Part shown: one piece after another, positions 22,009-24,488 of the stretch
Layout: each line of letters opens with the position of its first letter
How positions within the stretch are numbered: position 1 is the first letter of the stretch
DNA from: a virus
Virus record (IMG/VR): IMGVR_UViG_3300021364_000106
Span: 1 to 31,333 of that record
Strand: one strand, 5' to 3'
Length of the DNA: 31,333 bases
The notes under the pieces: model-generated
Databases searched by the model: none
Told to the model about the DNA's origin: nothing
Seen by the model: the letters and a program-made list of their open reading frames with translations, nothing else
Position numbers and translations under genes: made by a program

Positions 22009-22383
22009 ATGGCACAAAAATTATATAAATGGACAGGCGATATTACCGACCCAGAATCTTGGGATAGTGCTTTACCACCTCCTGAATGGTATGGCACAGA
22101 TGATAATGGTGTGTCTTATGCTCTTTTAGATACAGCTTTTGCTGCTGATTGTACTGCTACTGATTTGGCTGTTACCACAGCTACAACAGCTAAAGATTGG
22201 GTAAAACAAAACTCAAGACAAGCGAAGCAAATAAATAAAGAATGCCAAGAAGAAATACGTTTAGCTTACAGTTTAACTGATGAGCTGAAAGCGCATAGGA
22301 CAAATGACACAGATGTACTGAACGCTATAGGTACTATTGTTGCAACTCATCAAGCGAGAAAGAATGCATTAGTAGGTGATTAA
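22009..22383 (+). CDS. Hypothetical protein after the fibres (124 aa)
   Basis: It begins MAQKLYKWTGDITDPESWDS with a Trp/Pro-rich first third, and the second half is helical (KDWVKQNSRQAKQINKECQE, and so on). It follows the propeller fibre with AGGAGG at good spacing. Genes here sometimes encode fibre assembly chaperones, so that is a possibility, but no chaperone motif is visible. Its stop overlaps the next start (TAATG). Confidence 0.65.
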   Translation: MAQKLYKWTGDITDPESWDSALPPPEWYGTDDNGVSYALLDTAFAADCTATDLAVTTATTAKDWVKQNSRQAKQINKECQEEIRLAYSLTDELKAHRTNDTDVLNAIGTIVATHQARKNALVGD

Positions 22384-22565
22384 TGGCTAGGGTGAGTGAG
22401 GTGGAAAAAGATTTAGCAACGCATGAAGCAGTATGTGCTGAGCGTTATGAAATGATTTTATTCAGAATCAACCGACTAGAACGTATTCTGGTTGCTTGTG
22501 CAGGGATTTTGATCGTGGGGTCAGGATCAGTATTAACAGCCGTACTTTTCAGATTAGGAGGATAA
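22383..22565 (+). CDS. XhlA-like small membrane protein (60 aa)
   Basis: Residues 1-34 form an amphipathic, coiled-coil-type helix (EVEKDLATHEAVCAERYEMI, then LFRINRLERI). Residues 35-56 are one hydrophobic segment (LVACAGILIVGSGSVLTAVL). This matches the layout of XhlA-type proteins, which help holins in cell lysis. Its place just before the lysis genes supports that. It could alternatively be a spanin-like or other membrane peptide. Confidence 0.6.
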   Translation: MARVSEVEKDLATHEAVCAERYEMILFRINRLERILVACAGILIVGSGSVLTAVLFRLGG

Positions 22566-22566
22566 T

Positions 22567-22683
22567 ATGGCATATAAAACTAAAGCAAAAGCTGGCAAGG
22601 CTACATTTAAAACCTGCGCTGGCTGTAAAACGAAGGCACTTTGCAAAGCAAAAAAGAAGTGTCTGAAGAAAGGCAAAAAGTAA
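22567..22683 (+). CDS. Tiny Lys/Cys-rich protein (38 aa)
   Basis: A 38-residue ORF, almost half Lys, with four cysteines in the order CAGC-x5-C-x5-C (17, 20, 26, 32). TTAGGAGGATAAT gives an excellent ribosome site. The Cys spacing could bind one zinc or form disulphides. It resembles in composition the small basic proteins at 11131-11812 but shares no clear motif. It fills the gap between two genes with its own site, so it is probably translated. Confidence 0.65.
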   Translation: MAYKTKAKAGKATFKTCAGCKTKALCKAKKKCLKKGKK

Positions 22684-22701: not shown

Positions 22702-23172
22702 ATGGTTGTAGCAGAAACGCTTGCTGGCATAGCCCTCGTTAAATCTGCTGTAGAGGGAATAAAAAGTACTATCGCTACGGCAAACGATATAGGAGATATA
22801 GCAGGGCATGTAGATAAATTATTGCAAGGCCGAGATCAAGCTAATAAAGCTAAGCGTGAAGCTAGTACAGATCCTTTCAGTATTAAAAATATTGCAGAGG
22901 AAACTATAAACGCAAAGCTGGCTGAAGAACACCTTGATGAAATGCGCCAGTTAATAGACGCAAGATTTGGGTGGGGAACTTGGCAAGGCATAATAGCAGA
23001 AAGGGCTAGAAGAATACATGAGGCTAAAGAAGCGGAGAAAGCACTGAGACGTAAGAAGATGAAAGAGCATGATGAAATGGTAGAGACTGTCACTATTGGT
23101 GGCACTGTGATCATTGGTATTGTTGCTGTACTTGTTGCGGTGTATTTCTTCTTTAGGAGTATGTTTAGATGA
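22702..23172 (+). CDS. Helical protein with C-terminal membrane anchor (156 aa)
   Basis: The N-terminus, MVVAETLAGIALVKSAVEGI, begins a family I recall from marine phages. The middle is a long charged helix (about residues 75-126), and the end is a single membrane span (about 131-152, TIGGTVIIGIVAVLVAVYFF) with a short basic tail. This tail-anchored topology in the lysis cluster is consistent with a spanin-like or lysis-regulating role, but no spanin signature is visible. The last bases overlap the next start. Confidence 0.7.
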   Translation: MVVAETLAGIALVKSAVEGIKSTIATANDIGDIAGHVDKLLQGRDQANKAKREASTDPFSIKNIAEETINAKLAEEHLDEMRQLIDARFGWGTWQGIIAERARRIHEAKEAEKALRRKKMKEHDEMVETVTIGGTVIIGIVAVLVAVYFFFRSMFR

Positions 23173-23483
23173 CACAAAAGAAATTACAAAAAGAATCTAA
23201 GTATGCTGAGTATGATGAAGATGGTGATGGTATCGTGAGTGATGAGGAGTTATCTCACGTAAAAGCTATCAAAGAAACTGAGACAGCATTACGAAAGAAC
23301 TTAGCGCAACTGCGTATGGCAAGGTTTACACTTATTGCTATGGGCGTATTTACTGCAGCCATGTTTTTCGTACCTTTGGAGAGAGTAGAAGCTCTCGCAG
23401 ATATTAGTAACCTTTTCTATATATCAGGCGCTGGTATCGTAGGCGCATATATGGGAACTACAGCATGGATGGCTAGAAAATGA
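23169..23483 (+). CDS. EF-hand-containing membrane protein in lysis cluster (104 aa)
   Basis: Residues 16-27 (DEDGDGIVSDEE) fit a canonical 12-residue EF-hand calcium loop, with acids at 1, 3, 5 and 12 and Gly at 6. It is followed by a charged helix and two hydrophobic segments (about residues 50-68 and 80-98). Two membrane spans and a position next to the holin suggest a holin or anti-holin whose soluble part could sense calcium; that is inference. Only one EF-hand is present, where soluble EF-hand proteins usually pair them. ATGA overlaps both neighbours. Confidence 0.75.
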   Translation: MTQKKLQKESKYAEYDEDGDGIVSDEELSHVKAIKETETALRKNLAQLRMARFTLIAMGVFTAAMFFVPLERVEALADISNLFYISGAGIVGAYMGTTAWMARK

Positions 23484-23857
23484 TACAAGCATTGATTGGC
23501 CCAGTTACAGGGCTATTAGACAAATTCATACCTGACGCAGATCAGAAAGCTAAGTTGGCACACGACATAGCTACTATGTCAGAGAAACACGCTCAAGAAT
23601 TAGCACTTGCCCAAATAGAAGTTTTGAAGGCAGACGCCCAGGGAAATTGGTTTCAATCATCTTGGCGGCCCTTGATTGGCTGGATCTCAGGTCTCAGCCT
23701 TGGAATAAATTACATGGTAGCCCCGATCTGTGCAGGGTTTGGGATAACAATACCACAAGCAGATATGTCTGTGATGATGCCCTTAATGTTCGGCATGCTT
23801 GGAATCGGGGGGATGAGGTCATACGACAAAATGAAAAGGACGGATAGTAAAAAATGA
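23480..23857 (+). CDS. Holin, 3-TM GTA-holin-like (125 aa)
   Basis: The N-terminal amphipathic helix (VTGLLDKFIPDADQKAKLAH) leads to NWFQSSWRPLIGWISGLSLG, then NYMVAPICAGFG, and finally MMPLMFGMLGIGGMRSYDKM. The WRPLIGW string and the terminal GMLGIGGMRSYDK match the 3-TM holin group also seen in gene transfer agents. It forms the membrane lesion that frees the endolysin. It sits two genes before the M15 endolysin. Start ATG overlaps the preceding TGA. Confidence 0.85.
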   Translation: MIQALIGPVTGLLDKFIPDADQKAKLAHDIATMSEKHAQELALAQIEVLKADAQGNWFQSSWRPLIGWISGLSLGINYMVAPICAGFGITIPQADMSVMMPLMFGMLGIGGMRSYDKMKRTDSKK

Positions 23858-24039
23858 ATACTAAAGAAAGACAAAACGAAATAAGTAGTCTGTATCAGCA
23901 AGCTATGAAAGCTTGGGTCAGTGGCAATAGACTATCAAAAAATAAACAGATTCATATGATGCGCTGGAGACTGCGTAATGATTCTAAAGTAAAGAATCAA
24001 CAAATGAATAGTGATTCACAATTTAAGGATACCCAATGA
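23854..24039 (+). CDS. Hypothetical protein between holin and endolysin (61 aa)
   Basis: A small, very polar, Gln/Asn/Lys-rich protein (MNTKERQNEISSLYQQAMKA, then MRWRLRNDSK). Both ends overlap neighbours by ATGA, so it is co-translated with holin and endolysin. No membrane segment or signal is seen. It could be a lysis regulator by position alone. Confidence 0.65.
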   Translation: MNTKERQNEISSLYQQAMKAWVSGNRLSKNKQIHMMRWRLRNDSKVKNQQMNSDSQFKDTQ

Positions 24040-24488
24040 GTTTTGTATTATCAGAGAGAAGTCTTAGTAGGCTAGAAGGTGTAAACGATAGGCTAAGTAA
24101 AGTTGTTCAGTCAGCTATTGATTACACAAAAGTTGACTTTGGCGTCACCTGTGGACTTAGAACTGTAGAAGAACAGAAAGAGTTAGTAGAATCAGGTGCA
24201 TCACAAACAATGAACAGCAAGCATCTTGATGGTAATGCTGTAGATCTTGTTGCATACATAGGCCCCAAAATAAGTTGGGAGTTGAATGTTTACGATGACG
24301 TTGCCGAAGCTATCAAAACAGCAGCTATGGAACATGATCTGTCAATACGTTGGGGTGCAGCATGGCATGTCGAAGACATAAGAGAATGGCACGGAACTAT
24401 GGAAGAGCTTATGCTTGCGTATATTGATTTGCGTAGGCGACAAGGTAAGCGTCCATTTATAGATGCCCCACATTTTGAGGTGACATAA
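24036..24488 (+). CDS. Endolysin, M15-type D-Ala-D-Ala carboxypeptidase/L-Ala-D-Glu peptidase (150 aa)
   Basis: It cuts peptidoglycan peptide bridges. The zinc-peptidase signature SKHLDGNAVDLV (61-72) supplies ligands His63 and Asp70, and FIDAPHFEV (141-149) supplies Asp143 and third ligand His146. CGLRTVEEQKEL (39-50) is also typical of VanY/M15 endolysins. There is no signal peptide, so release depends on the holin. Normal single-domain length, no separate wall-binding domain. Confidence 0.92.
   Translation: MSFVLSERSLSRLEGVNDRLSKVVQSAIDYTKVDFGVTCGLRTVEEQKELVESGASQTMNSKHLDGNAVDLVAYIGPKISWELNVYDDVAEAIKTAAMEHDLSIRWGAAWHVEDIREWHGTMEELMLAYIDLRRRQGKRPFIDAPHFEVT

Follow-up and report, generated by a model that had tools for sequence, protein, structure and literature searches.

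A gene for a two-span membrane protein in the lysis region

The sequence analyzed here, referred to below as the window, is the whole 31,333-nucleotide stretch of IMG/VR virus record IMGVR_UViG_3300021364_000106. It contains an ORF encoding a small membrane protein with an N-terminal EF-hand-type loop (the EF protein). The features of this region are as follows.

22383..22565, + strand: 60-aa single-span protein, present in the same block in some relatives
22702..23172, + strand: single-span protein (TM1up family), the commonest syntenic partner of the EF-loop family
23169..23483, + strand: EF-loop two-span membrane protein (ATG start, 104 aa), with at least 581 IMG/VR relatives
23214..23249, + strand: EF loop DEDGDGIVSDEE, residues 16-27 (D16-E27), with near-invariant ligand positions and a profile match to calmodulin EF-hands
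23250..23318, + strand: exiting helix, residues 28-50, predicted to be continuous with span 1 (AlphaFold2 helix 25-67)
23319..23369, + strand: predicted membrane span 1, residues about 51-67 (hydropathy and AlphaFold2 model)
23406..23468, + strand: predicted membrane span 2, residues about 80-100 (small-xxx-small positions and AlphaFold2 model)
23480..23857, + strand: GTA-type 3TM holin (PF11351, E 9.5e-17; phrog_3427, PHROG category lysis/holin, E 1.3e-29)
24036..24488, + strand: M15-type endolysin (phrog_465, E 6.4e-50; PF13539, E 2.1e-5)

The EF ORF shares 4 bp with each of its neighbours (22702-23172 upstream and 23480-23857 downstream). It is followed by the GTA_holin_3TM gene, a 61-aa ORF and the M15 endolysin gene, and the two listed proteins upstream each have one predicted C-terminal span. 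An earlier note on this DNA had placed the ORF in a lysis cluster beside the holin, and this placement was confirmed by the GTA-type 3TM holin directly downstream and the M15 endolysin further on. The PF11351 match belongs to the neighbour at 23480-23857; the EF protein itself has no match to this Pfam model. In addition, a 38-aa Lys/Cys-rich small ORF, MAYKTKAKAGKATFKTCAGCKTKALCKAKKKCLKKGKK, is located at 22567-22683, where it separates two membrane-protein genes.

Conservation of the EF loop

When all six frames of the window were scanned with a relaxed EF-loop pattern, DEDGDGIVSDEE was the sole match. Among shuffled versions of the EF protein, only 0.012% contained the relaxed pattern and 0.001% the strict one; the loop is not due to chance. 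As in EF-hand and calmodulin loops, it comprises 12 residues with D, D/N and D/N ligands, a glycine, a hydrophobic residue at position 8, mostly S/T at position 9 and E at position 12. A total of 199 distinct proteins of the family were compared. Loss of the acids at positions 1, 3, 5 and 12 in homologues, which the earlier note had named as refuting its reading, was not observed; these acids were retained almost without exception (D1 in 198, D/N3 in 199, D5 in 199 and E12 in 198 of the 199), as were G4 (195/199), G6 (197/199) and V/I8 (199/199), and positions 2 (2.75 bits) and 10 (1.94 bits) are variable. The codons for the D, G and E residues of the loop interchange synonymously across relatives. 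Moreover, the ligand pattern was found in all of 31 additional sequences, mostly from the CRP-345 branch with D-x-N-x-N-G loops. This pattern of conservation indicates that strong purifying selection acts on the loop in podovirus-like, roseophage and T4-like phages alike.

A profile built from 37 members matched calmodulin EF-hands with E values of about 7e-11 to 1e-9, the best-scoring relatives of known structure; on the basis of this profile similarity the family loop is related to calmodulin EF loops. Singly, 32 of the 37 members matched the EF-hand_5 Pfam model at E values up to 0.1, and such single-protein matches fall under the curated cut-off of Pfam. A Foldseek search of the modelled EF protein against PDB and BFVD gave nothing significant; all 15 weak matches in PDB were EF-hand proteins or complexes containing one.

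Some of the searches for relatives used loop peptides, and one used span 2 only. The new loci gained by the span-2-only pattern also carry the loop, and loop conservation as an artefact of the search pattern was therefore rejected. Because matches were retained in order of their similarity to the query, very divergent loop-less relatives could have escaped. Among the members found, the canonical loop has been lost only in Stenotrophomonas phage DLP_6 (locus L085, 3971-4417), in which the two spans are kept; the loop is thus dispensable at least once.

Predicted helices, membrane spans and topology

The AlphaFold2 model, of moderate confidence (pLDDT 72, pTM 0.38), consists of the loop, a helix of residues 25-67 and a second helix of residues 70-103. 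The earlier note had described two membrane segments after the loop. The first of them is clear by hydropathy; the second is glycine-rich and lies under the hydropathy threshold in the window protein, where it is supported by the modelled helix. Span 2 passes this threshold in CRP-9, CRP-345, HTVC008M and locus L025, and its small-xxx-small positions are widely conserved (92/96 in 195 and 89/93 in 178 of the 199 proteins). Q47 and M50 in the exiting helix are near-invariant. Q47 is spaced 20 residues from the end of the loop in the window and CRP-1 types, 22 in the Melnitz type and 11 in phiM12. Compared with the window protein, the phiM12 protein has 57 residues ahead of the loop and nine fewer between loop and Q47.

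The description of the motif as a textbook EF-hand applies to the 12-residue loop, not to a complete helix-loop-helix. In the model, any entering helix of the window protein covers at most residues 13-15. In 49 CRP-1-type proteins, the loop starts after just 4-6 residues, too few for an entering helix, and hence a classical entering helix cannot be general in the family. Unlike typical EF-hands, the family has a single loop that merges directly into a membrane span; the window protein has just one such loop and thus no EF-hand pair within its chain.

The net charge of the C-terminal tail is +2.4 and that of the turn between the spans is -1.1. The basic tail is thus predicted to lie inside; with two spans, this charge bias places the N-terminus, and with it the loop, in the cytoplasm as well (N-in and C-in). 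A loop so oriented would not face seawater and would meet calcium upon a membrane leak.

These properties bear on whether the loop senses calcium at all. The bound metal may purely stabilize a protein that acts in the membrane late in infection, in lysis or otherwise, with calcium being no signal. Dx[DN]xDG motifs occur in at least 12 families, and a lone, unpaired loop often serves a structural purpose among them (PMC3123361); the CRP-1-type members lacking an entering helix are consistent with such a role. On the other hand, the near-absolute conservation of the loop, despite very different gene contexts and sequences, and its predicted location in the cytoplasm, with its low resting calcium, are more in keeping with sensing than with a structural role. 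On balance, we consider a purely structural metal somewhat unlikely.

A family of proteins annotated as hypothetical

The family is carried by many marine phages: at least 581 IMG/VR relatives were obtained from one scan, and later scans added Melnitz-like, CRP-1-like and CRP-345-like branches. Relatives in named phages include those of Roseobacter phages CRP-1, CRP-9, CRP-207, CRP-345 and CRP-810, Limnohabitans phage DC31, Pelagibacter phage HTVC008M, Methylophilales phage Melnitz, Sinorhizobium phage phiM12 and its kin, and DLP_6. Every member found in a named phage is annotated as hypothetical. In PHROGs the family corresponds to phrog_27150 (unknown function), which derives from T4-like Sinorhizobium phages and matches the proteins of the window (E 3e-8), CRP-9 (E 5e-11) and phiM12 (E 2e-96). 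The EF-loop protein is not described in the open literature that we searched on EF-hands with holins, pelagiphages and marine phage endolysins; a paper on related roseophages names the holin and endolysin, and calcium and transmembrane go unmentioned in it.

An 80%-identical copy is present in a phage block of a SAR116 single-cell genome, where it directly follows a lysozyme-like gene; its occurrence there suggests that the host range is alphaproteobacterial and includes SAR116. This block (CACBIM010000001.1, 241518-253829) borders bacterial genes on a contig with bacterial nuo and transporter genes, and is likely a prophage; no tRNA was found within the interval. A Maricaulis metagenome-assembled genome, IN14, has three family members on contigs C6, C30 and C90. 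One Maricaulis locus (L436) contains EF, GTA-type holin and M15 genes and another (L437) contains TM1up, EF, 3TM protein and M15 genes.

Gene context across relatives

Among 286 loci, 152 have a lysis gene (3TM holin, M15, GH108 or spanin) no more than 3.5 kb away from the EF gene, 53 show a T4-like context and 81 have neither a lysis gene nor a T4-like block. Inspection of some of these 81 loci revealed an adjacent T4-lysozyme-like or 3TM-holin-like gene in four loci (L037, L092, L110 and L025). The recurrent gene orders are TM1up-EF-GTAholin, TM1up-EF-M15-spanin, EF-GTAholin-M15 and gp26-gp51-EF-TMP. Many EF cassettes include a member of the 22702-23172 family, which also occurs apart from the EF gene (for example, in HMO-2011 and CRP-4). 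In CRP-1, the EF gene is directly 5' of the endolysin gene, and in CRP-345 the EF, spanin and endolysin genes are consecutive. Linkage of the family to lysis genes is real and is repeated in unrelated cassettes, in most although not all relatives.

Exclusive linkage to lysis was rejected. In the T4-like phages HTVC008M, Melnitz, phiM12 and DLP_6, the EF gene lies between gp51 and a tape-measure-like gene, and no stand-alone lysis gene adjoining it was found. Downstream of it in DLP_6 is a gene annotated "lysozyme, large", which on visual inspection resembles a tape measure with a GH108-type domain fused to it. In other inspected loci of the 81 (L063, L095, L104 and L106), the EF gene is located between terminase and portal genes and lysis genes are absent nearby. 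Given the T4-like and terminase-portal placements, lysis may not be the only or common role of the family. In T4-like phages without an EF gene (cyanophage S-ShM2 and Moby), gp51 or its position abuts the next large gene. Caulobacter phage Cr30 encodes an 82-aa loop-less two-span protein in the gp51-to-tape-measure slot (L380, 3372-3620), whose top PHROG match is a membrane protein (E 0.044); its being a counterpart of the EF protein in this slot is only suggestive.

Such placements would be expected of a late membrane protein that serves superinfection exclusion or another envelope role, possibly as a sensor of calcium entry, and is linked to lysis genes merely by the packing of late operons. 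The window, CRP-207 and CRP-810 each encode, besides the EF protein, a 3TM holin or other 3TM protein, which points in the same direction. Against this, the EF gene is repeatedly found, in cassettes unrelated to each other, next to genes for M15 and GH108/lysozyme-like enzymes, 3TM holins and spanins, and in CRP-1 the EF protein is the sole multi-span protein apart from the spanin among the smaller and unassigned annotated genes and the late region. We regard this reading, in which the protein does not act in lysis, as decidedly unlikely.

The relationship to 3TM proteins differs among phages. CRP-2 gave no EF match and has a 147-aa 3TM protein of a type found in pelagiphages and annotated there beside M15 peptidases. 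The idea that the EF protein and 3TM proteins exclude each other was rejected, as both are present in CRP-207 and in the window; the EF protein is hence not the only candidate holin in every phage. CRP-345 additionally has a 56-aa two-span early gene. Where both proteins occur, the EF protein might act as an antiholin-type partner that restrains the 3TM holin until calcium or depolarization frees it. The window EF gene precedes and overlaps the GTA holin gene, and the TM1up-EF-GTAholin order recurs, as such a partnership would predict; yet T4-like phages, TM1up-EF-M15-spanin cassettes and CRP-1 have the EF gene and no known 3TM holin (the PF11351 search for 3TM holins matched no control either, so this absence is weak evidence). 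An antiholin role seems very doubtful to us.

Comparison with known holins

The predicted layout of the EF protein, with two spans (the second weak by hydropathy in the window protein) and an N-in/C-in topology, would resemble that of class II holins such as the S pinholin of phage 21. Small residues in span 2 are a further similarity, as is, in some relatives and not in others, the position of its gene beside an endolysin gene. Span 2 of the S21 pinholin contains a glycine zipper (PMC9025707), which the small-residue pattern of the EF protein recalls by resemblance. Unlike class II holins, the EF protein starts with a module of about 50 residues that contains the loop. Comparison of the family with known holin families gave only a sub-threshold match to Phage_holin_3_6 (E 0.024). 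Remote homology to the two-span phrog_10198 of CRP-6 and HMO-2011 was rejected (hhalign probability 0.3%).

A possible calcium-responsive step in lysis

We tentatively propose that the EF protein is a late holin-like or holin-partner inner-membrane protein with a calcium-sensing N-terminus, which may well be the case although we stop short of calling it probable. Where there is no other candidate, as in CRP-1, it would be the holin-type protein, and beside a 3TM holin, as in the window, it would be a second holin or a holin partner. In the predicted arrangement, the N-terminus, with its single EF loop of the Dx[DN]xDG type, lies in the cytoplasm, and a helix extends from this loop into span 1; the chain would then turn briefly in the periplasm, cross the membrane again as span 2, which resembles a glycine zipper, and end in a basic tail inside the cell. 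Calcium binding, membrane permeabilization and the coupling of both are inferred. Occupation of the loop by calcium (or Mg/Ca exchange there) would order and cap the helix that enters span 1, and the ordered helix would alter assembly of the membrane part.

Seawater contains about 10 mM calcium and cytoplasmic calcium is low, so that a first leak, by letting in outside calcium, would load the loop. The loaded loop might then make pore opening self-reinforcing, lock it, or do no more than stabilize the protein. In Pseudomonas aeruginosa, cytoplasmic calcium is described as micromolar and periplasmic calcium as tracking or exceeding that outside (PMC9132961). The broader proposition is that the family constitutes a widespread class of holins or holin partners in which cytoplasmic calcium gates or times action via the EF loop, and in which lysis would be driven, or locked, by the first entry of calcium from seawater. 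We regard this proposition as unlikely at present. The interpretation in the earlier note is supported in part, by the conservation of the loop acids and the linkage to lysis genes; the calcium control of lysis timing that it suggested is hypothetical.

In cultured phages, lysis timing has been attributed to holin accumulation and membrane potential. If the proposal is true, an ion-sensing module on a membrane protein encoded beside the lysis genes would represent a new control input on lysis, in a family that spans pelagiphage HTVC008M and phages linked to SAR116 and Roseobacter. Isolates carrying the gene already exist (CRP-1, CRP-9, CRP-345 and HTVC008M), and the proposal offers a candidate function for a family whose members in named phages are all annotated as hypothetical.
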